Position numbers and translations under genes: made by a program | In this document: positions 3,574 to 19,222 of the stretch, piece after piece | Numbering within the stretch: the first letter of the stretch is position 1 | How the letters are laid out: each line of letters opens with the position of its first letter | Virus record (IMG/VR): IMGVR_UViG_3300023174_007317 | Coordinates: 1 to 20,238 of that record | Origin: a virus | Direction: 5' to 3' (one strand) | DNA length: 20,238 nucleotides | Notes under the pieces: generated by a model | Database searches by the model: none | What the model saw: only the letters and a program-made list of their open reading frames with translations | Told to the model about the DNA's origin: nothing

Positions 3574-4044
3574 ATGCATCCTATGAAAACTTGTAACAAA
3601 TGTAAAGAAATTTTAGAACACAATTTATTTGCTAAAAATCGGGCTAAAAATGATGGGTACGAAAATTATTGTAAACCATGTAAAAATACCTATAATAAAT
3701 CTAATTATGGAAATAAATTTACAAAATTATATTTGAAAAAAGAAGGTTATGGCATTTACAAAATGTTAAATTTAGAAACCGGAGAATATTATATTGGAAA
3801 AGGATGGTTAAATGAACGAAAAGTTGACCATTTTACTAAACTTAAAGCTAATAAACATTCTAACCCATATTTACAAAGATCATATCTTACCTCCACCCAA
3901 TTCGAATTCCAGGTTATAGAAAAATGTGAACCTGAACTTGGAAGTCTAAAGGAAAGAACATATATTATAGAAGCATTTTTAAAAGAAGAAAATAAATTAT
4001 TAAACCAACACATTACTTTAAGATGGGACAAATTCCAAGAATGA
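3574..4044 (+). CDS. GIY-YIG homing endonuclease with N-terminal zinc finger
   Basis: This 156-residue protein has an N-terminal zinc ribbon (C7, C10, C33, C36) and then a GIY-YIG nuclease core: GYGIYKM (GIY at 60-62), EYYIGKG (YIG at 73-75), NERKVDHF (R82, H86) and the metal-binding Glu in TYIIEAF (E133). These are the conserved catalytic positions of the family. A second in-frame ATG at 3583 is also possible and would still keep the zinc ribbon. Its TGA overlaps the queE ATG at 4041 in an ATGA arrangement, so the endonuclease sits immediately against queE without breaking it. It is probably a mobile selfish element that uses the flanking deazapurine genes as homing site. Confidence 0.87.
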   Translation: MHPMKTCNKCKEILEHNLFAKNRAKNDGYENYCKPCKNTYNKSNYGNKFTKLYLKKEGYGIYKMLNLETGEYYIGKGWLNERKVDHFTKLKANKHSNPYLQRSYLTSTQFEFQVIEKCEPELGSLKERTYIIEAFLKEENKLLNQHITLRWDKFQE

Positions 4045-5988: not shown

Positions 5989-6528
5989 ATGAAACTATTA
6001 AAAGGATTTAAAAATCAAATCACAAAATTCCTAGCAAAACAAGTTGTTGGCAATACAAAAGAAAACTATGTACCATTTGTATCAGAAGTTGAGGAATTTA
6101 ATGCAATAATGGGAAAGCCCAATAATTATACCCCGAACATACCCGATGAAAAAGAGTGGATGTTTGTCTATAATTTCATTTTAGAAGAATTGGAGGAGTA
6201 TAAACATGCATGCGAAACGGGGAATATTGTTGAGGTTCTTGATGCTCTATGTGACATTACCTACGTTTCATTGGGCAACGGTGCTATGCTACATGGTCTT
6301 AAGGATAAAGTATGGCCAGCATATCAAGAAGTACAAGCGTCTAATCTTAGCAAAGCTTGCACAAGTAAAAAGGAGGCACAAGAAACCGTTAGAGTACGTT
6401 CCGAAGAGCAAAAGACTCCGTGTCACTACTCGAAGGTTGGTAGATATTATATCGTCTATAGAAGCTCTGACAAAAAAGTAATGAAATCAATCAATTACTT
6501 TAAACCTGACTTATCTCAATTTTTGTAA
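5989..6528 (+). CDS. MazG-like nucleoside triphosphate pyrophosphohydrolase
   Basis: This 179-residue protein has the MazG/HisE-type metal-binding pattern: ILEELEEY (E66, E67, E70) and then EVLDALCDITYVSLG (E82, D85, D89), followed by GL, EVQASNLSK, matching the usual EVxxSNxSK block. Such all-alpha enzymes hydrolyse NTPs or dNTPs to monophosphates and pyrophosphate. The C-terminal 60 residues are basic and less conserved, ending in KSINYFKPDLSQFL. It follows folE by 12 nt, so the two are likely co-transcribed. In phages with modified DNA, such an enzyme may clear a competing dNTP, but the substrate cannot be read here. Confidence 0.82.
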   Translation: MKLLKGFKNQITKFLAKQVVGNTKENYVPFVSEVEEFNAIMGKPNNYTPNIPDEKEWMFVYNFILEELEEYKHACETGNIVEVLDALCDITYVSLGNGAMLHGLKDKVWPAYQEVQASNLSKACTSKKEAQETVRVRSEEQKTPCHYSKVGRYYIVYRSSDKKVMKSINYFKPDLSQFL

Positions 6529-6544
6529 TATTTATAATAAAATA
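6529..6544 (+). promoter_or_regulatory. Shared A/T motif before the tagged gene at 6550 (candidate late promoter)
   Basis: TATTTATAATAAAATA, identical to 14861-14876 and 17121-17136, begins 21 nt before the ATG. All three copies precede genes whose products share the same N-terminal tag. It has no matching -33 TTG at the standard spacing, so it may be a phage-specific late promoter. T4 late promoters read TATAAATA; here that string appears only on the opposite strand of the motif. Confidence 0.45.
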
Positions 6545-6549
6545 TAAAA

Positions 6550-6891
6550 ATGACACAAGAACAATTACGTATGCAAATGTTGGCTGGTATTATTACAGAA
6601 GGTCAATATAAAGAAAAAATAGAAGAAGCAGATAGATATTATGGCGATATGGAAGATGGTCTTTATATTGCAATTGATAGAGAACTAGACAAGAAAGAGC
6701 AGGAACAGATAGCACTAGCAGCAAAGAAAAAGTTTTTTGTTAACCCGAAAAAAATAAAATTTGGAGAAAATCCACATACTGGAGAGTACTCAGTATTTAT
6801 CCCAAATGCGGGAGATAATGCAAATATGCTAGATGTTTTAAAAAAATTTGGAATAGGTGAACCACCTTACACTAGCCCACATCTTAGGTAA
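6550..6891 (+). CDS. Putative virion protein with N-terminal capsid-targeting-like tag
   Basis: This 113-residue protein starts MTQEQLRMQMLAGIITE, nearly identical to the start of the 14879 gene and similar to that at 17143. The I-T-E at 15-17 fits the T4 prohead protease consensus (Leu/Ile-X-Glu, cut after Glu), and T4 internal head proteins carry a comparable cleaved N-terminal targeting peptide. The rest is acidic then basic (KKKFFVNPKKIKFG) and ends in GEPPYTSPHLR; the family is not recognised. The gene has the shared A/T motif upstream and a terminator downstream, so it may be expressed separately from the MazG-like gene. Head location is an inference. Confidence 0.75.
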   Translation: MTQEQLRMQMLAGIITEGQYKEKIEEADRYYGDMEDGLYIAIDRELDKKEQEQIALAAKKKFFVNPKKIKFGENPHTGEYSVFIPNAGDNANMLDVLKKFGIGEPPYTSPHLR

Positions 6892-6913
6892 ATTTTAAAC
6901 AAATCTTCTATAG

Positions 6914-6941
6914 AAAAGCTTGCCTACCGGCAGGCTTTTTT
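6914..6941 (+). terminator. Rho-independent terminator before the DNA polymerase gene
   Basis: AGCTTGCC (6917-6924) pairs with GGCAGGCT (6929-6936) with one G-T pair around a 4-nt loop, extended by AAA/TTT, then a run of T to 6941. The 5' arm carries the TTG of the next promoter. Very similar hairpins occur at 15261 and 18249. Confidence 0.8.
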
Positions 6942-6950
6942 GTATCTTCA
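6920..6950 (+). promoter_or_regulatory. Promoter for DNA polymerase, embedded in the terminator
   Basis: TTG at 6920-6922 lies in the terminator's 5' arm and TATCTTCA at 6943-6950 follows its T-tract, with 20 nt between. The leader to ATG 6965 would be under 10 nt. A TATAAATA string at 6951-6958 equals the T4 late consensus but lies too near the ATG and is probably chance. Confidence 0.6.
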
Positions 6951-6964
6951 TATAAATAAAGTTT

Positions 6965-9694
6965 ATGTATCAAAGTGTTTTTTACAACAGGTTACCAGGA
7001 GAAGATCAATGGTACTACTATCTACGGGACGATAAAAAAGGAATACACAAATTCCAATATTGGCCTACTCTATATAAGTTGGATGAATATGGGGAACATG
7101 AAACACTATTTGGTGAAAAATGTTCTCCAATATCTGGTAAATACGATAGAAAAGATCCTACAATTTATGAAAAAGACATTGACCGTGAACTTGTACTTTT
7201 AAGAGATCTGTACTACAAGACAGACGAAATGCCTGAATACCACAATACCGTTTATTTAGATATTGAAATTGAAATTTTAGGTGCACTTACCCCATTTACT
7301 ATTAGAGAAGCTAATGCAGAAATTACAGCCATTGCTTTAATTGATACCTCCACTAAGGAAAAGATATGCTTTATTTTAGATAAAGCAGGTAAAATAGAGG
7401 ATATAAACCAAGATGGGAAAACCATTATTTCATGCCAAGATGAAAACACCTTACTACGTAAATTCTTATTAAAATGGGAGCAAATGGATCCTACAATTGT
7501 AGTAGGATACAATAGTGATTTCTTTGATATTCCTTATTTATATTATAGAATTAGAAAATGTTTGGGAGATGAAGTAAACCGTTTATCCCCAATTGGAAAA
7601 ATTACAGAAACATTATCCCAACCAAATTCCCCAATTAAAATTGGTTTAGTTAGCAGTTTAGACTATATGTTATTGCTTCGCAAATACATTGCTAAGGAAG
7701 AACCATCCTACAAGTTAGGTGATATCGGCAAAAAATATGTTAATTTAGGTAAAATTGAATACAACGGTAATTTAGATACTTTATTTAGGGAAGATCCACT
7801 TAAATTTATAGAATACAATATTCGAGATGTTGAAATTATAGAAGCATTAGAGGAAAAACAAAAGTTTATTGAATTAACTATTTTGATTTCCCATTTATGC
7901 CATACACCATACGAATCAATTTACTACAATACCATATTAAACGAGGGGGCGATTTTAACGTATTTAAAACGCAAGGGTATAATTGCACCCAATAAACCAA
8001 CTACCACAAACCACACCATTAAAGAGCTTGAACTCGGTGATCACGTGGTACATCAACGCGGTACTTCAACAATTGAGGGTACTGTATATAGCTTTGAAAA
8101 AGATAACATTGTTGTAAAAACAATGGCAGGAAAATATGTCAATCGTTACCCTAAATCAATCCGTAAAAAAGATAGCTACGCAGGTGGATATCTACTAGAT
8201 CCTATCCCAGGACTATATTCAGATGTAAGTGACTTAGACTTTACCTCACTATATCCCTCCATTATCAAATCTTTGAATTTAGGTGTTGAAACACTAATAG
8301 GTAGAATTGTTACAAAAGATAATTACGAACAATATAATTCTTTAGAGCAGTTAAAAAAACTTGACCCTGAAGAAAAATTACACATACAAAAACTAGTCAA
8401 ACGATCTTATACTTTAAAAGACGCTACTATAGCAGCCGGAGCTTTAATTAAATTAATTGAAGACAATAATTGGACTATTTCCGCTAGTGGAGCATTTTAT
8501 AGAACCGATCAAAAAAGCATAGCTTGTGAAGTACTAGAGGATTGGTTTAACCAAAGAGAACATTATAGAGCACTTAAGAAAAAAGCAGGTAAAAAAGAAG
8601 ATTGGGCAAACTATAAACTATATGACTTGTACCAAATGGCATTTAAAATCTTACAAAACGCTTTATATGGTACATATGCAATTAACTCTTGGCGCTTTAC
8701 AGATGGATTTAAAATATGCTCAGCCGCTATCACAAACAGCGGACAACGTTTAACTAAAGAATCAATTACATTTGTAAACGACTATATCTCCAAACAATTA
8801 AATACAGACCCAAAAACATTCGTAATAGCTAGCGATACAGATTCCCTTTACATGGAGTTAACTGATTTGCTAAAACATAGAAACCCTGATTTAAAATACG
8901 AAGATCGTGAAGAAAAAATCAAACATTTACTTATTTTAACAGAAGAACTACAGCAAGTAGCAAACGATAATTTAAACAATATATCGCAGGATTTATTCAA
9001 TATGACCGAAGCACACCATTTTGTGCTTAAACAAGAGGTAATCGCTGAAAAAGCGTATTGGTCCGGAAAACGCCGTTATGCAATGTACATTGTAAACAAA
9101 GAAGGCATATCAATTGAGGAATTAGAGATGAAAGGAATGGACATTATGAAATCTAATTTTCCTCCCCTATTTAGAAACTTTGGAGAAAATTTGATCAAAA
9201 ATATTCTATTTGGTAAACCAAAAATCGAAATAGATAAAGACGTAATGGAATTCAAAAAAATGGTTGGTAAAATTGAGTGGATTAACTTACTGAAACCAAC
9301 TGGATTAAAGAAAATGGGTGAATATATTGAACGTAAACCTATGGCTGGTGATTTATTTTCCAAATTGAAATTAAAATGTCCTGTAAACACAAAAGCAGCA
9401 ATTAGATACAACGATTTTTTAAAATATAAAAAACTTAATGTAAAGTACCCTGAATTTACCATTGGAGATAAAATGTATATAGCTAACCTGAAACCAAACC
9501 CATACCAAATTGACACTATAGGATACAACGGCTACAACGATCCAGATGACATTACAGAATTAATTAACAAATATATTGATAGAGATGGTTTATTTGATAG
9601 CGTAATGCGAAACAAATTAGAAACCGTGTACAATGATATTGGTTGGGATTTTAATTTGAATCCATTTAAAGCTAAATTCTTTACATTCAACTAG
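6965..9694 (+). CDS. Family B DNA polymerase (T4 gp43-like) with 3'-5' exonuclease
   Basis: This 909-residue replicative polymerase is close in length to T4 gp43 (898). Exonuclease residues are in order: YLDIE (D99, E101), GYNSDFFDIPYL (D188) and YNIRDVEI (Y284, D288). Polymerase motifs follow: A, DLDFTSLYPSII (D425); B, KILQNALYGTYA (from K561); C, IASDTDSLYM (D624 and D626). Proofreading and polymerisation should both be functional. Between the exonuclease and motif A (about 341-405) lies an extra segment, GDHVVHQRGTSTIEGTVYSF and on, with the alternating pattern of a small beta barrel; it is not an intein by any visible splice motif. The C-terminus (PFKAKFFTFN) is aromatic, like clamp-binding tails. 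The start follows the promoter at 6920 and keeps the N-terminal domain at normal size. Confidence 0.97.
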   Translation: MYQSVFYNRLPGEDQWYYYLRDDKKGIHKFQYWPTLYKLDEYGEHETLFGEKCSPISGKYDRKDPTIYEKDIDRELVLLRDLYYKTDEMPEYHNTVYLDIEIEILGALTPFTIREANAEITAIALIDTSTKEKICFILDKAGKIEDINQDGKTIISCQDENTLLRKFLLKWEQMDPTIVVGYNSDFFDIPYLYYRIRKCLGDEVNRLSPIGKITETLSQPNSPIKIGLVSSLDYMLLLRKYIAKEEPSYKLGDIGKKYVNLGKIEYNGNLDTLFREDPLKFIEYNIRDVEIIEALEEKQKFIELTILISHLCHTPYESIYYNTILNEGAILTYLKRKGIIAPNKPTTTNHTIKELELGDHVVHQRGTSTIEGTVYSFEKDNIVVKTMAGKYVNRYPKSIRKKDSYAGGYLLDPIPGLYSDVSDLDFTSLYPSIIKSLNLGVETLIGRIVTKDNYEQYNSLEQLKKLDPEEKLHIQKLVKRSYTLKDATIAAGALIKLIEDNNWTISASGAFYRTDQKSIACEVLEDWFNQREHYRALKKKAGKKEDWANYKLYDLYQMAFKILQNALYGTYAINSWRFTDGFKICSAAITNSGQRLTKESITFVNDYISKQLNTDPKTFVIASDTDSLYMELTDLLKHRNPDLKYEDREEKIKHLLILTEELQQVANDNLNNISQDLFNMTEAHHFVLKQEVIAEKAYWSGKRRYAMYIVNKEGISIEELEMKGMDIMKSNFPPLFRNFGENLIKNILFGKPKIEIDKDVMEFKKMVGKIEWINLLKPTGLKKMGEYIERKPMAGDLFSKLKLKCPVNTKAAIRYNDFLKYKKLNVKYPEFTIGDKMYIANLKPNPYQIDTIGYNGYNDPDDITELINKYIDRDGLFDSVMRNKLETVYNDIGWDFNLNPFKAKFFTFN

Positions 9695-12867: not shown

Positions 12868-13593
12868 ATGGATTATACAAGAATATACAACCAAATTATT
12901 GAACGTGCTCAAAATCGTAAACTGGATGGATACGTTGAAAAACATCATATAGTTCCAAAATGTATAGGTGGTTTAGATATAAAGAAAAATTTAGTTGAAT
13001 TGACTGCTCGTGAACATTTTTTATGTCATAGATTACTTTGTGAAATATATCAAAAAGAACCTAAACTATGGTATGCACTTTGGTTAATGGCTATAGGAAA
13101 AAGGAAATGGATTGAATCTACTCCATATAATATATCTAGTAAAGAATATGAGCGTATAAAATTAGAATTTATTGAGCATAGAAAAGGAAAACCTATAAGT
13201 AACCAACATAAAACCAAAATAAGCAAAAGCAACTCTAAACAAATAATCCAATATTCGACCTCAGGTGAATACATCAAAACCTTTCTAAGCGCAATAGATG
13301 CTGAAAGATATATCAATCAAAAACCTACAGCACATTGGAAAGAACTTAGAAATAATATAAACGATTGTTGTAGAGGAAAACAAAAATCTGCTTATGGATA
13401 TATTTGGAAGTATGAAGGAGATTTATTAAATTTAGAAGAACATAAAGGAGCAAATAATTGTAAAGCAACAAAATTAATCATTTATCAAAATAAAACATAT
13501 AAATCTCAAACCGATTTTTTCAAAAAAACAGGAATGAGTAACTATACATTTTATAAAATGTTAAAAGAAAATAAAATAACTTATGGAAACTAA
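12868..13593 (+). CDS. HNH homing endonuclease with NUMOD-type repeats
   Basis: This 241-residue protein has an N-terminal HNH core: VEKHHIVPKCIGG (H26, H27), then NLVELTAREHFLCHRLL (N41, H50, H54), a pattern typical of T4-group mobile HNH enzymes. A NUMOD3-like KGKPISNQHKTKISKSN follows, and then a NUMOD1-like IIQYSTSGEYIKTFLSAIDA and a C-terminal helix-turn-helix-like TDFFKKTGMSNYTFYKML, all DNA-contacting modules. It lies immediately after groEL and overlaps the next gene by 11 nt. It is probably a free-standing selfish endonuclease targeting this locus. It differs in type from the HNH gene at 660, which uses a zinc ribbon. Confidence 0.92.
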   Translation: MDYTRIYNQIIERAQNRKLDGYVEKHHIVPKCIGGLDIKKNLVELTAREHFLCHRLLCEIYQKEPKLWYALWLMAIGKRKWIESTPYNISSKEYERIKLEFIEHRKGKPISNQHKTKISKSNSKQIIQYSTSGEYIKTFLSAIDAERYINQKPTAHWKELRNNINDCCRGKQKSAYGYIWKYEGDLLNLEEHKGANNCKATKLIIYQNKTYKSQTDFFKKTGMSNYTFYKMLKENKITYGN

Positions 13594-13846
13594 AATAGTA
13601 GAATATAATGAATTGATAGCTATAAGATTTCCCCCATCAGATAGGTGGAAGTTAGTAGACGATAAAACAGAAACAATTCACAAATCCATTACAGATGCTT
13701 TAGAGGCATGGTTTGATAAAAACCAAGAAAAGGTAGAATTTCGTTTAGCTCCTATAGAAGGCAAATTATATGTCATTCGAAGTGAAGAAAAAGAAATTCA
13801 ACCTGAACCAATTAAACGATTTAACATATATGGAGACCCTCAATAA
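13583..13846 (+). CDS. Hypothetical protein, 87 residues
   Basis: ATG 13583 overlaps the end of the HNH gene by 11 nt. The product METKIVEYNELIAIRFPPSD and on is a small acidic protein with Trp residues (RWKLVDD, EAWFDKN), a likely two-strand plus helix fold, and a C-terminus FNIYGDPQ. I do not recognise it. Its stop codon lies in the loop of a strong terminator, so it closes the groESL-HNH transcription unit. Before insertion of the HNH gene it would have followed groEL directly. Confidence 0.65.
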   Translation: METKIVEYNELIAIRFPPSDRWKLVDDKTETIHKSITDALEAWFDKNQEKVEFRLAPIEGKLYVIRSEEKEIQPEPIKRFNIYGDPQ

Positions 13847-13861
13847 CGGGTCTCTTTTTTT
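13833..13861 (+). terminator. Rho-independent terminator
   Basis: GAGACCC (13833-13839) pairs perfectly with GGGTCTC (13848-13854) around an 8-nt loop that holds the upstream stop codon, and is followed by T7 (13855-13861). It ends the groESL/HNH unit. Confidence 0.88.
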
Positions 13862-13864
13862 ACA

Positions 13865-13873
13865 TATTTATAA
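13865..13873 (+). promoter_or_regulatory. Partial copy of the A/T motif before the 13876 gene
   Basis: TATTTATAA matches the first nine bases of the motif before the three tagged genes, but lies only 2 nt before the ATG, against 2-6 nt from the longer motif in the others. If it is a promoter, the start of the message would lie at or inside the gene, so its role is uncertain. Confidence 0.25.
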
Positions 13874-13875
13874 CT

Positions 13876-14853
13876 ATGAAATTAACTGATATATTACGCC
13901 AAATAAACGAAGAGGAAGAGGAAGATAATAAAGGACAAGAGTTTAATATTCCAAAAAATATGACTTTAAGATCTACTTCTATCCCTGTAGCTAAATTAGA
14001 AGACTACCTTAATAATAGTTCAAATTATGGAATATACTCTCGTAATATCCAGAATGCGGGTAGTGATGCTTTAAAAACTAAAATAGAGCAAGAACAAACT
14101 AAAATATTTGGTCCGAAAGGAAAATTTAGAGGTCCTAATATGAAATTAGCGGCTGCTAAAGAAAAATGGAACGAAGCTAATGCTGAATGGAAAAAAAGTA
14201 AAGCCCAAGAAATTGCTTCCCGTATTCCTGGGTTAGATATTAGTGGATGGGAAGAGTTAAAATTTAATGAACTTCCAAGACAAGCTAAAGATTTATTTTA
14301 TGACATAAGTACTGGCCCTAAATTAGATGCATTGCTTAAAAGAGTAAAATCTGAATTTTCAACCCAAGAAAACCCATTAAATTGGGAAGAAGAAGATGGC
14401 CGCCTAATATTCCCCCCAGATACTAATCCTAAGTTTGATGTAATTAAAAAAACTGTTAATACTGTAATGAAAAATGCAGGTATCCCAAAAGAAGAATATG
14501 AACTAAAACCAGAGGATATAAAAGGATTTATTGCACCAAAACAAGAAATCCCAACAACCCCTCAACCTGCAGGCCCATCAGTTTTAACCCTTACCCTAGA
14601 CCCAGATAAAATTAAAGGTAAAAAACCTGAATTAAATAATATAGTTAAGCTATTAAAAAATACATACGATAAAAATTTTGATTACAATAAAGAAACAAAT
14701 GTAATTAAAATTGCAAATATTAAACCTGAACGAAGAGATATTGTTAGAAGTCAATTTGGAAATTTCTTAAAAAAAACTGACCCTATTAAAGAATCTTTAG
14801 ATTTTGATCTTGAAAGATATCAAATGTTAAGACGAGCAGGTATAATTAAATAA
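13876..14853 (+). CDS. Putative virion or prohead-associated protein, 325 residues
   Basis: The protein starts MKLTDILRQINEEEEED; I-N-E at 10-12 fits the T4-type prohead protease consensus, and the start resembles cleaved targeting peptides of T4 internal proteins. A charged, Lys/Glu-rich body follows, with helical segments (KLAAAKEKWNEANAEWKKSKAQE) and a Pro/Thr-rich linker (EIPTTPQPAGPS, about 224-235). The C-terminal third has LTLTLDPDKIKGKKPELNNI and ends ERYQMLRRAGIIK, similar to the C-terminus of the 18160-ending protein and to the N-terminal tags. It follows a terminator, so it starts a new unit. Family unknown; the head or core assignment is an inference. Confidence 0.75.
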   Translation: MKLTDILRQINEEEEEDNKGQEFNIPKNMTLRSTSIPVAKLEDYLNNSSNYGIYSRNIQNAGSDALKTKIEQEQTKIFGPKGKFRGPNMKLAAAKEKWNEANAEWKKSKAQEIASRIPGLDISGWEELKFNELPRQAKDLFYDISTGPKLDALLKRVKSEFSTQENPLNWEEEDGRLIFPPDTNPKFDVIKKTVNTVMKNAGIPKEEYELKPEDIKGFIAPKQEIPTTPQPAGPSVLTLTLDPDKIKGKKPELNNIVKLLKNTYDKNFDYNKETNVIKIANIKPERRDIVRSQFGNFLKKTDPIKESLDFDLERYQMLRRAGIIK

Positions 14854-14860
14854 GATAATA

Positions 14861-14876
14861 TATTTATAATAAAATA
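14861..14876 (+). promoter_or_regulatory. Shared A/T motif before the tagged gene at 14879
   Basis: TATTTATAATAAAATA, an exact copy of the motif at 6529 and 17121, beginning 18 nt before the ATG. No -33 TTG is found at the standard distance. Confidence 0.45.
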
Positions 14877-14878
14877 AA

Positions 14879-15226
14879 ATGACAAAAGAACAATTACGTA
14901 TGCAGATGTTGGCTGGTATTATTACTGAAAGTGAATATAAAGTTAGATTAATGGAGTTAGCGGGCCTCTCTATGCAAGAAGGTATTGACGTAACACCGGC
15001 AAATGCACAAACCATAATGTCGGATCTTAAAAATGAGAAGGATGGCATCTATGTTCTAAAGGGTGGATTAGATCGCCGCGGTGGATGGAATGAGGACAGC
15101 TTACAAAAAGGGAAACCTCTATATTACACAACGGATTTCGATGACCCTAAACTTAAATCATTTCAAGAAGACGGAATGGTGTGGGTTAATATTGAAAACG
15201 GTGAAATGGAAGTCGAAGAGTACTAA
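14879..15226 (+). CDS. Putative virion protein with N-terminal capsid-targeting-like tag
   Basis: This 115-residue protein starts MTKEQLRMQMLAGIITE, matching the 6550 gene at 16 of 17 residues, with the same candidate protease site after Glu17. The first 63 nt differ from those of the 6550 gene at only five positions, yet the bodies are unrelated: here GLDRRGGWNEDSLQKGKPLY and an acidic C-terminus GEMEVEEY. Base composition also shifts after the tag, with more G and C. This suggests that a tag plus upstream motif was joined to a different body. A terminator follows. Function of the body is unknown. Confidence 0.78.
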   Translation: MTKEQLRMQMLAGIITESEYKVRLMELAGLSMQEGIDVTPANAQTIMSDLKNEKDGIYVLKGGLDRRGGWNEDSLQKGKPLYYTTDFDDPKLKSFQEDGMVWVNIENGEMEVEEY

Positions 15227-15260
15227 AAACACACACTAAATTAAATAAATAAAATAAAAG

Positions 15261-15285
15261 AGCTTGCCTAGTGCAAGCTTTTTTT
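15261..15285 (+). terminator. Rho-independent terminator before the clamp loader
   Basis: AGCTTGC (15261-15267) pairs perfectly with GCAAGCT (15273-15279) around a 5-nt loop, then a T run to 15285. It is similar in sequence to the hairpins at 6917 and 18249, and its 5' arm contains the TTG of the next promoter. Confidence 0.82.
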
Positions 15286-15294
15286 GTATATTAT
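15264..15294 (+). promoter_or_regulatory. Promoter for the clamp loader operon, embedded in the terminator
   Basis: TTG at 15264-15266 lies in the hairpin arm, and TATATTAT at 15287-15294 follows the T-tract with 20 nt between. ATG 15299 is 4 nt downstream, so the message would be leaderless, and the ATG at 15293 would lie inside the -7 box. Confidence 0.6.
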
Positions 15295-15298
15295 GGTT

Positions 15299-16207
15299 AT
15301 GAAAGAAAATACATTGTACGTAGAACGTTTTCGCCCTACCGAACTGAAATACTATGTTGGTAACGAAAATGTAAAAGACACAATACAAAAATACCTTAAT
15401 CAAGGTGATATTCAAAACTTTATCTTTTATGGTCCCGCAGGTACAGGCAAAACTACCCTAGCAAAAATTATCGTTAAAAATCTAGATTGCGATTATCTTT
15501 ACATAAATGCATCCGATGAAAATGGAATTGACACTATTAGAGAGAAAGTAAAGGGATTTGCTAGCTCAGCTTCTTGGAAAAGTATTAAAGTAGTAATTTT
15601 AGACGAAGCAGATTTCATTACAATTCAGGGACAAGCCGCTTTACGTAACGTAATTGAGACATTCTCTCGCTCAACACGATTTATATTAACTTGTAACTTT
15701 ATTGAGCGAATCATTGATCCACTTCAATCACGTTGCCAGGTACTTAAAATTGTACCTCCATCTAAAACAGATGTATACAACCATTTAGATTGGATATTAA
15801 AGGATCAACTATCTATTTCATATAAACCTGAAGATTTAAAATCACTTATAGTACAGTACTACCCTGACATGAGAAAAATGTTGAATGTACTTCAAATGTC
15901 TGTAAAAGATGGCTGTATTGAACTAGATAAAACAGTTTTAACTTCAAACAACTATATTAAAGAGGTATTGAAGGAACTAATGGGAAGTAAAAAATGGCTT
16001 ACCATTAGACAAATTATAGCGGATTCAAATACAAAGGACTTTGAAGAATTGTATCGTAATTTATTTGAATACAGTTCAAAATATGCTCCTGGAAAGGAAG
16101 GCTCCGTTGCAATTATATTAAACGAACATTTATATCAAGCAAATTTTAGAATAGATAAAGAAATAAATGTAATGTCGGCTTTAGCCAAAATTATAGAAAC
16201 AATATAA
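15299..16207 (+). CDS. Clamp loader large subunit, AAA+ ATPase (T4 gp44-like)
   Basis: This 302-residue protein has a Walker A GPAGTGKTT (45-53), Walker B VVILDEAD (98-105), a sensor 1 region TCNFIERI (131-138) and the SRC arginine-finger motif (144-146), the hallmarks of sliding-clamp loaders such as T4 gp44 and archaeal RFC small subunits. It opens the clamp ring and loads it on primed DNA, using ATP. The initial VERFRPTELKYYVG is the usual loader start. ATG 15299 is preferred to 15293 because the latter overlaps the promoter -7 box. Three further genes follow closely, including its probable gp62-like partner. Confidence 0.94.
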   Translation: MKENTLYVERFRPTELKYYVGNENVKDTIQKYLNQGDIQNFIFYGPAGTGKTTLAKIIVKNLDCDYLYINASDENGIDTIREKVKGFASSASWKSIKVVILDEADFITIQGQAALRNVIETFSRSTRFILTCNFIERIIDPLQSRCQVLKIVPPSKTDVYNHLDWILKDQLSISYKPEDLKSLIVQYYPDMRKMLNVLQMSVKDGCIELDKTVLTSNNYIKEVLKELMGSKKWLTIRQIIADSNTKDFEELYRNLFEYSSKYAPGKEGSVAIILNEHLYQANFRIDKEINVMSALAKIIETI

Positions 16208-16905: not shown

Positions 16906-17120
16906 ATAGAGAAATTAAGGTTACAGACTCAATTGTAGACTCCATTATAGACAAATTTGTTGCTAGAGCCACCATTGGAAAACAAAAGTATGGAACAGAT
17001 TTAGATCGTAACGACCTAAAACTAGAAGAATGGCTAGAACATAGTATCCAAGAAAAAATGGATGACATATTATATATTCAGAAAGCTTTAATAGTATTGC
17101 GCGAAGCAAAAAATACATAA
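16902..17120 (+). CDS. MazG-like small nucleotide pyrophosphohydrolase
   Basis: This 72-residue helical protein starts in an ATGA overlap with the preceding gene. It has IVDSIIDKFVARATIGKQKYGTDL and then LEEWLEHSIQEKMDDILYIQKAL, the pattern of a phage MazG-like family (some annotated dATP/dGTP pyrophosphohydrolase) with EEW and ExxD (E51, D54) as likely metal ligands. It is very short, so it must form a multimer to build the active site. It is a second MazG-like protein in addition to the one at 5989. The substrate cannot be told from the sequence. Confidence 0.72.
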   Translation: MNREIKVTDSIVDSIIDKFVARATIGKQKYGTDLDRNDLKLEEWLEHSIQEKMDDILYIQKALIVLREAKNT

Positions 17121-17136
17121 TATTTATAATAAAATA
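17121..17136 (+). promoter_or_regulatory. Shared A/T motif before the tagged gene at 17143
   Basis: TATTTATAATAAAATA directly follows the preceding stop codon and begins 22 nt before the ATG. It is the third exact copy. A TTG at 17097-17099 lies 21 nt upstream of it, but the other copies lack one. Confidence 0.45.
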
Positions 17137-17142
17137 TATAAA

Positions 17143-17925
17143 ATGGAAAAAGACACATTACGCATGCAATTCCTTTCAGGTGTAATCACAGAAGGTGAAT
17201 ACAAAGCTATTATCAATAAAGAAATTGAGGATGCTGAAAAAGCATCTTTAAACGAATCCATGATTGGAGGAATTGTTGGAATTGGAGCAATTAACCAAAT
17301 CCCACCTCGTGCTAAAGCAGATTATGAAACAGCGTTTGAACATTTCTTAGGTGAAAAATATGGTTTAAATGAAGTTGAAATAGAAGAAGTAAAAATAGAA
17401 GAAGGAGCATTTGGTGACTTGTTAAGTAGAATGGAAAATAATACTAGAATGGCAGCTGATATTCTTACTGTTATTACTTTAGCAAAAGAAGATAAAGAAG
17501 GCAATGCTGAAAAAGCTGTTGAATTATTAATGAAAAATCACAACTTATCTAAAGAAGCAGCACTTGAAGCTGTTACTCGTATCTTTAAAAAAGCTTTTGA
17601 ATGGGTAGATTCAATTGAAGAAGAAGTTGAAATTAAAGGTATTGATGAAGTAGAAGAAAAAACTTATCTTCCACAAGGGAAATTTGAAAGCACTGAAAAT
17701 TTTGAAGATTTCTTAAAGGAAATTGATGCTATGCCTAAAGAAACAGTTAAACAAATCATGGGAAAACATCATTACATCCCAACACCAGGCACTTACCAAC
17801 AACAAGCTAAAAACTACGATAATGATATTAAACTCTATATGGAAGATAATATAGGCAAAACTGATTTGTATCAACTTGAGGAGTATTGGAAATTTTACAT
17901 ATCTGATGAATACAGAAAAAAATAA
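17143..17925 (+). CDS. Putative virion or prohead core protein with N-terminal tag
   Basis: This 260-residue protein starts MEKDTLRMQFLSGVITE, the third copy of the tag, with the candidate protease site again after residue 17. Its DNA is more diverged from the other two than they are from each other. Next is a Gly/Ala segment (MIGGIVGIGAINQIPPRAKA, about 40-59), then a highly acidic helical body (EVEIEEVKIEEG and EEEVEIKGIDEVEEKTY) and a C-terminal region YWKFYISDEYRKK. A long acidic helical body fits scaffold or core proteins, but I do not recognise the family. It is followed after one base by another probable virion gene. Confidence 0.78.
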   Translation: MEKDTLRMQFLSGVITEGEYKAIINKEIEDAEKASLNESMIGGIVGIGAINQIPPRAKADYETAFEHFLGEKYGLNEVEIEEVKIEEGAFGDLLSRMENNTRMAADILTVITLAKEDKEGNAEKAVELLMKNHNLSKEAALEAVTRIFKKAFEWVDSIEEEVEIKGIDEVEEKTYLPQGKFESTENFEDFLKEIDAMPKETVKQIMGKHHYIPTPGTYQQQAKNYDNDIKLYMEDNIGKTDLYQLEEYWKFYISDEYRKK

Positions 17926-17926
17926 T

Positions 17927-18160
17927 ATGAACCCAAGAGATATAATTACAGTAGACGTTCCTCTATTTATTCGTTTACTCGAATATGCTAGAGAAGATGC
18001 CCAATCAGACATGGATTTACATGATCTAATAGAAAACATTATATCATTGGCTGCTTCCGGTAAAACACTATCTATGGAAGATTACAGTACAATAATTGGA
18101 TCTCAAGAAGATATTAATGAACGCAGAATGCTTCAAGTAAGAGCAGGAATTATTAGATAA
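17927..18160 (+). CDS. Small putative virion-associated protein, C-terminal tag variant
   Basis: This 77-residue protein starts at ATG 17927, one base after the preceding stop; an in-frame upstream ATG (17876) would overlap that gene by 50 nt and is less likely. VDVPLFIRLLEYAREDAQSD followed by a helical MDLHDLIENIISLAASGKTL resembles a small family seen in T4-like phages, function unknown. It ends with ERRMLQVRAGIIR, like ERYQMLRRAGIIK at the end of the 13876 gene. Both resemble the LRMQMLAGII core of the N-terminal tags but lack the T-E protease site. Confidence 0.72.
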   Translation: MNPRDIITVDVPLFIRLLEYAREDAQSDMDLHDLIENIISLAASGKTLSMEDYSTIIGSQEDINERRMLQVRAGIIR

Positions 18161-18205: not shown

Positions 18206-18234
18206 TATCCTAGTATCGCTACAGGGATATTTTT
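18206..18234 (+). terminator. Probable terminator after the 17143-18160 unit
   Basis: Bases 18206-18215 pair with 18220-18229 (one mismatch, one G-T pair) around the tetraloop TCGC, followed by five T (18230-18234). A second small hairpin, CCGTA (18182-18186) with TACGG (18191-18195), lies upstream. The 126-nt gap from 18161 to 18286 holds these two, a third terminator and the next promoter, and no other gene that I can see. Confidence 0.6.
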
Positions 18235-18248
18235 AAAAACTAAAAGAA

Positions 18249-18273
18249 AGCTTGCCTATGGCAGGCTTTTTTT
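18249..18273 (+). terminator. Rho-independent terminator before the nuclease gene
   Basis: AGCTTGCC (18249-18256) pairs with GGCAGGCT (18260-18267) with one G-T pair around a 3-nt loop, then T7 to 18273. It is near-identical to the hairpin at 6917-6936. Confidence 0.82.
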
Positions 18274-18282
18274 GTATCTTTG
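18252..18282 (+). promoter_or_regulatory. Promoter for the nuclease gene, embedded in the terminator
   Basis: TTG at 18252-18254 in the hairpin arm and TATCTTTG at 18275-18282, an exact TAnnTTTG box, with 20 nt between. ATG 18287 follows 4 nt later, so the message would be leaderless. This is the best match to the Bacteroidetes consensus in the window. Confidence 0.75.
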
Positions 18283-18286
18283 TGTA

Positions 18287-19222
18287 ATGAAAAAGAAGTT
18301 ACCTTTACTATTAAAAGAGATTAAAAGTAAACAATTACCAACAATAGATTATGCAACTCAAAAATCTATTTCATATTCTCAATTATCCATGTTCAATGAG
18401 TGTCCTAAAAAATGGTCACTCCAATACAAAGAAGGATATAAACAATTTACTTCCTCCATTCACACTATTTTTGGAACAGCATTACATGAAGTTATCCAAG
18501 CTTACTTAACTACAATGTATGGAAAAAGTGGAGCAGAAGCAGATAAACTAAACACATACGAAATGCTTGAAGATGCATTACGTGAAGAATATAAAAAGCA
18601 ATACAAATCAAACAATAACCAACACTTTACCTCCCCTGAAGAACTTAGGGAATTTTTTGAAGATGGGGTAGAAATCATAAGAGAATTTGCTAAAAACAGA
18701 AACAAATATTTTTCTAAACGCGGTTGGCATTTAGTAGGATGTGAGTTACCTCTTATACTCCACCCCTCTCCAAAATTATATAATGTAATGTTCCAAGGTT
18801 ACTTAGACATTGTAATGTACCACGAGCCAACAAACACAATCAAGATCATAGATATTAAAACCAGTAAACAAGGTTGGAGCAAGAAAGAAAAATCAGACGA
18901 AAATAAACAATTTCAACTTATACTCTATAAAAAATATTTTTCTGAAACATACAATTTACCATTAGAGAATATAGAAATAGAGTTTATGATCGTAAAACGT
19001 AAACCATTTGAAAGCGATAAATTCGTAATCAAACGTGTACAACTATTTAAACCTGCATCAGGTAAAGTAAAATTAAATAAAGTATCTAAATCAATTGAGG
19101 AATTTATAGAACAGGCATTTGATCGAAATGGATACAAAGATGTTGAACATCAACCAACCCCACATAAAAATTGTAATTGGTGTTCATTTCATAAGACTCA
19201 CTTATGCTCTGCGACCTACTAA
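18287..19222 (+). CDS. PD-(D/E)XK nuclease, Cas4/RecB-like, probable Fe-S cluster
   Basis: This 311-residue protein has the RecB-family nuclease motifs in order: SYSQLSMFNECPKKW (29-43), FGTALHEVIQ (62-71, H67), QGYLDIVMY (170-178, D174), IIDIKTSK (187-194, D189 and K191) and QFQLILYKKYF (208-218, the QxxxY motif). Cys39 together with C296, C299 and C307 near the end gives the four-cysteine arrangement that holds a [4Fe-4S] cluster in Cas4 and AddB. It probably is a single-strand exonuclease used in replication or recombination. ATG 18287 is chosen because the promoter overlaps any upstream start. No CRISPR array is seen in the window. Confidence 0.9.
   Translation: MKKKLPLLLKEIKSKQLPTIDYATQKSISYSQLSMFNECPKKWSLQYKEGYKQFTSSIHTIFGTALHEVIQAYLTTMYGKSGAEADKLNTYEMLEDALREEYKKQYKSNNNQHFTSPEELREFFEDGVEIIREFAKNRNKYFSKRGWHLVGCELPLILHPSPKLYNVMFQGYLDIVMYHEPTNTIKIIDIKTSKQGWSKKEKSDENKQFQLILYKKYFSETYNLPLENIEIEFMIVKRKPFESDKFVIKRVQLFKPASGKVKLNKVSKSIEEFIEQAFDRNGYKDVEHQPTPHKNCNWCSFHKTHLCSATY

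Follow-up and report, generated by a model that had tools for sequence, protein, structure and literature searches.

What is the function of a sequence that is repeated at the start of three otherwise unrelated genes in one phage? The repeat lies in a 20,238-bp virus contig from a T4-like phage (IMG/VR record IMGVR_UViG_3300023174_007317; the whole contig is referred to as the window), where the ORFs that start at 6550, 14879, and 17143 share an N-terminal peptide (the tag); the initial annotation explained it as a cassette in which promoter and tag move together onto new gene bodies. The translations identify queC/D/E, folE, polB, groES/groEL, and clamp and clamp-loader genes in the window, which shows partial synteny with Flavobacterium phage immuto. 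The window encodes a family B DNA polymerase (6965–9694) together with clamp and clamp loader; in immuto, the polymerase ahead of groES/groEL belongs to family A, a likely polymerase exchange. When read by eye, the ORFs at 660–1322, 3574–4044, and 12868–13593 resemble homing endonucleases of the HNH or GIY-YIG type.

The tagged genes form three units, all features of which are on the plus strand. In unit A, a late-promoter motif (6528–6543) precedes the tag MTQEQLRMQMLAGIITE (6550–6600; predicted cleavage after E17) and a cargo body without a family match (6601–6891). Unit B contains a late gene (13876–14853) that ends in a C-terminal tag, ERYQMLRRAGIIK followed by the stop codon (tag codons 14812–14850), and then the motif (14860–14875), the N-terminal tag MTKEQLRMQMLAGIITE (14879–14929; predicted cleavage after E17), and its cargo body (14930–15226). 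In unit C, the motif (17120–17135) and the tag MEKDTLRMQFLSGVITE (17143–17193) are followed by a mosaic body of exchangeable modules (17194–17925) and by a 77-aa protein (17927–18160) that also ends in a C-terminal tag, RRMLQVRAGIIR and stop (tag codons 18122–18157). Neither the C-terminal tags nor the scaffold match described below had been noticed in the initial annotation.

The repeat itself is real: the regions at 6529 and 14861 share an identical 16-nt motif and differ at 5 of the first 63 coding bases, and in the repeat family (D1) the 6550 and 14879 copies are 88% identical. The motif, ATATTTATAATAAAAT, occurs at 6528, 14860, and 17120 (one base ahead of where it was initially placed) and nowhere else in the window. 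As had been described, the similarity ends abruptly behind the tag, since 40 of the 60 bases after the first 63 differ (6550 vs 14879), and the 17143 copy combines an exact motif with diverged coding DNA (18–19 differences in 63). The reported change in base composition is clear for 14879 (body 41% GC, tag 30%), but only there.

The N-terminal tag has 17 residues with the consensus M(T/N)(K/Q)EQLRMQMLAGIITE↓(G/S), in which the arrow marks the predicted cut, and is found on unrelated bodies in a clade of T4-like phages, most of them aquatic. In the loci that we collected, we counted 191 distinct, non-redundant N-terminal tags, and the bodies behind them group into 92 clusters with no similarity detected between clusters; that is, a short conserved N-terminal peptide is carried by otherwise unrelated proteins, the pattern by which a capsid-targeting sequence (CTS) of the T4 type is recognized. 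A degenerate DNA pattern for RMQxLAGI(x)TE matched at least 119 IMG/VR stretches and two contigs only in one-per-species bacterial and archaeal genomes, with the translated motif present in one of the two, a Fluviicola MAG contig. Large related contigs have 0 to 5 strict matches each, and some of these probably belong to the scaffold. When annotated phages were searched with the short tag, neither the nucleotide nor the protein comparison gave a usable match, and a literature search did not find the motif.

In the profile of the 191 tags (R 1.00, M 0.99, Q 1.00, then L-A-G, T 0.91, E 0.95, and G/S/N 0.88), R, L, A, G, and nearly Q and M were preset by the search pattern and the TE↓G/S end was mostly free; the first IMG/VR scan required TE, so the T and E frequencies are inflated for its loci, whereas the loci from other scans did not all require it. 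By sequence match, this end (T-E↓G/S/N) is a site of the type used by the prohead protease gp21, with the T4 counterparts LTE↓A in gp23, from which the first 65 residues are cleaved (PMC9958956), and ITE↓A in IPI. At the matching place, the capsid proteins of the clade mostly have V-x-E↓A/S/Q. Cleavage of the tag by gp21 at ITE↓G/S is likely on this comparison.

The tag also matches the end of a protein in the head module. Directly upstream of the major capsid gene and after the gp21 protease, that is, at the position of the gp22 scaffold, is an acidic ORF that ends in R(M/W/F)(Q/K/R)xLA(G/N)I(I)(K) and stop, or a close variant, in 77 of 77 readable loci (core form R(M/W/F)QxLAGII(K) and stop); among other ORFs this ending is found in 1 of 948, and that one is also in the head module. 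The ending agrees in substance at the scaffold position of immuto, Microcystis phage Mel-JY01, Rhodothermus phage RM378, and the huge phage LR756508; the T4 gp22 end is without the motif. Synteny, acidity, a T4-like N-terminus, and an enrichment of L/I-x-E (1.53, compared with 0.96 in cargo bodies) identify the ORF as a putative gp22, although a profile search of the gp22-position ORF gave no PHROG scaffold match. The idea that the cargo is a polyprotein cut at many LxE sites was rejected, the bodies being unenriched. In immuto, the gene at the scaffold position (gene 204, 125626–126867) is annotated as a ‘DNA polymerase phi-like protein’, probably a misannotation from acidic repeats. In the Mel-JY01 locus (L127), an ORF between gp21 and gp22 (22429–23595) has the ADP-ribosyltransferase-like pattern YRA...STT...ESEI; it has no Pfam match and is perhaps an Alt-like head enzyme.

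A peptide that matches the scaffold tail and closes with a likely protease site would make a removable address label, and this is probably what the tag is. Many unrelated proteins carry the core R-M-Q-x-L-A-G-I-I, normally at the N-terminus with T-E↓G/S behind it. We put the probability that the repeat encodes a removable capsid-targeting peptide at roughly 80%, judged from sequence comparisons. The tag might instead dock the cargo to another late complex (tail, portal, or late transcription machinery) or to the membrane and not to the prohead core, and some tagged genes are indeed among replication genes near the sliding clamp; we consider this improbable, as all readable loci have the motif at the end of the ORF that separates gp21 from gp23 and the tag itself ends in a gp21-like site.

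If the repeat encodes a capsid-targeting peptide, is the promoter part of it? The window has four copies of the promoter core TATTTATAA and no others, at 6529, 13865 (13865–13873), 14861, and 17121, each ahead of a tagged gene; the gene behind the 13865 core is 13876, whose tag is C-terminal. In relatives the same motif precedes structural genes. In immuto, 24 of the 30 plus-strand TATTTATA sites are followed within 70 nt by a gene, in many cases a head or tail gene (such upstream DNA is 10% of the genome), and in 80 capsid loci the motif occurs 342 times on the coding strand and 84 times on the other. From this placement and strand bias we take the A/T motif to be the clade's general late promoter, outside the tag proper; the promoter as a component of a tag cassette was therefore rejected. 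A promoter within 70 nt is found for only 58 of 187 tagged genes (31%), a point against the capsid-targeting reading, and for 169 of 1324 other ORFs.

At their other ends, the three units terminate in similar stem-loop terminators fused to early-promoter-like sequence: at 6909–6944 ahead of the polB gene (z −6.7), at 15256–15284 ahead of a gp44-like clamp-loader gene, and at 18243–18273; a further terminator (13832–13855) lies directly ahead of unit B. The composite terminator-promoter element (GCTTGCCTA..GCAAGCTTTTTTTGTAT) is located at 6902–6965, 15246–15309, and 18234–18297; in the last, TTG in the stem is about 20 nt ahead of TATCTTTG, which resembles a Bacteroidota promoter. The collected loci contain 73 distinct copies of the element, 48 of which follow a tagged ORF.

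Comparison of loci shows that a given locus keeps its promoter and tag and exchanges the body behind them. Between the 17143 locus and its orthologues, the upstream DNA and the tag are 94–100% identical, similarity is lost in the body, and it recovers downstream. The body of the 14879 gene recurs in another locus (L211) at 99–100% identity behind a less similar tag (92%) and upstream DNA (75–82%), and an inserted module behind the tag is common to two different tagged loci, one of the 6550 type (L241) and one of the 17143 type (L301). The terminator-promoter elements stand at the three unit ends, but the exchange borders that we mapped are inside the tag or just behind it. Thus, the initial interpretation was right that tag and body have separate histories; a single travelling cassette of promoter and tag was not supported, nor was an older age of the third copy (17143), which belongs to another locus lineage and is conserved among its own orthologues.

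Other leaders can take the place of the tag. Homologous bodies carry either the tag or the leader MKxSQLKQLIKEEIxKILxE in five pairings from four body families (L212 with the 14879 body of the window, L110 with L057, L069 and L089 with L009, and L281 with L111). This leader resembles the N-terminus of a small ORF between gp20 and gp21, a likeness that is weaker than the scaffold match and only suggestive. A third leader type, M..NFDL(K/R)(K/E)(F/Y)L..N.L...LL.E or similar, is found in immuto genes 194, 195, and 202 and in L315; its carriers are proteins encoded in the head module or close to it and one Acb1-like protein.

The tag is also used at the C-terminus. In homologues of the 13876 gene, the protein end is conserved and the remainder is 23–49% identical in most; an AF2 model places the C-terminal tag in a helix after a disordered linker, and a fold search with this model (pTM 0.38) gave no match. 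In the 77-aa family, the C-terminal tag is present in 51 of 51 copies classed as stand-alone and absent in the 3 of 3 cases in which the domain is fused behind an N-terminal tag, and 2 further copies have neither tag; this either-end pattern is supportive, but not a formal test, because the copies are related. C-terminal tags mostly lack the cut site, so cleavage of the tag would not be universal.

Could the repeat be a mobile cassette without a role at the protein level, that is, promoter and tag DNA that act as a recombination hotspot copied between loci? The sharp breakpoints at the tag and the composite elements behind tagged ORFs fit this proposal, as do synonymous codons that are kept beyond codon usage between and within genomes (ratio 1.16–1.30). 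In the window, the synonymous conservation described in the initial annotation exceeds codon usage (11 of 13 comparable codons agree, 6.4 expected; p ~0.01) but is unexceptional among all LRMQMLAGIITE tags (p ~0.08), which in unrelated contigs have 62% of synonymous codons in common. Recent duplication of tags within a genome is unsupported (0.652 for same-genome pairs, 0.621 for different-contig pairs of the same flavour). Against the hotspot, conserved residues are encoded by varying codons (CGT/AGA, ATT/ATC/ATA), the peptide recurs at another gene position in C-terminal versions and scaffold tails, and unrelated leaders substitute for the tag; we regard it as quite unlikely. Least credible is that the tagged genes are diverged scaffold or core paralogues with a peptide shared by ordinary homology: both have the motif and late expression would be expected for both, but the 92 dissimilar body clusters include an Acb1-family enzyme and the motif is C-terminal in the scaffold and N-terminal in the cargo.

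Family searches with the bodies were almost all without a convincing match. The exception is one tagged body that scores as Acb1 (29.1 bits; Pfam cut-off 27) and has HCT and HMT motifs, so we consider it a putative enzyme of this anti-CBASS family; a PDB sequence search with this protein found no match. Its relatives in other phages have at least four unrelated short leader types, some of them closely T4-like (MKTIKDFITE↓K). A hydrophobic-x-E is located ahead of the core in 28 of 28 Acb1-family leaders and in 61% of shuffled leaders; for the 19 distinct leaders, the product of the shuffle probabilities is ~3e-5 when relatedness is ignored. With its head-targeting-like leader, the Acb1-like protein is probably delivered by the virion.

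The best explanation of the repeat as a capsid-targeting peptide is that the tag works like the T4 CTS, via a copied scaffold tail and with fast-changing cargo. Late in infection, the tag would make the contact of the scaffold tail with the capsid protein or another core component, and the cargo would thereby be built into the prohead core; gp21 would then cut after ITE, and the freed body would stay in the head and be injected together with the DNA. Promoter, tag, and terminator would persist from phage to phage, and recombination within the conserved tag or immediately behind it would bring in a different body. We give even odds to a broader proposal, that the clade loads its heads by molecular mimicry: the cargo would show the terminal peptide of the scaffold at either end, the interchangeable leaders would each be copied from a core protein (the gp22 C-terminus or the N-terminus of the small gp20–gp21 protein), and the virion would serve as an open platform on which counter-defence proteins, for example Acb1-like enzymes, are packaged in advance.

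Recruitment of cargo into the T4 core has been described as unresolved (PMC9958956), and the peptide common to scaffold and cargo suggests a concrete contact for it. The tag would also be a sequence rule for predicting which uncharacterized proteins in uncultured phages are virion-borne and injected, likely anti-defence proteins among them, and it may serve as a new label with which foreign proteins could be brought into phage heads.

Three known systems invite comparison. With Acb1, an anti-CBASS 2H phosphoesterase, the tagged body shares a profile score above the cut-off and both HxT motifs; it differs in its leader, as T4 57B has no head-targeting-like leader. The mobile regulatory cassettes (PeSL) of T4-like phages, reportedly described by Arbiol in 2010 and by Comeau in 2014, may be similar in that composite terminator-promoter elements lie beside exchanged genes and in homology-driven shuffling; here, however, the conserved junction encodes a peptide that is probably functional, and exchange extends from whole genes to bodies and internal modules. 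The T4 CTS (IPI–IPIII and Alt) is, like the tag, a short N-terminal peptide on unrelated, fast-changing proteins (about 10–20 residues vs 17) with a hydrophobic-x-E end at a probable gp21 cut. The T4 leaders (MKTYQEFIAEA and MKTFKEF..ITEA) are without RMQxLAGI, whereas the tag copies a scaffold C-terminus, is also used at the C-terminus, is found on many more bodies, and is swappable with other leaders. Because the two share no sequence similarity, we conclude that the tag may work like the T4 CTS without being of the same sequence family.
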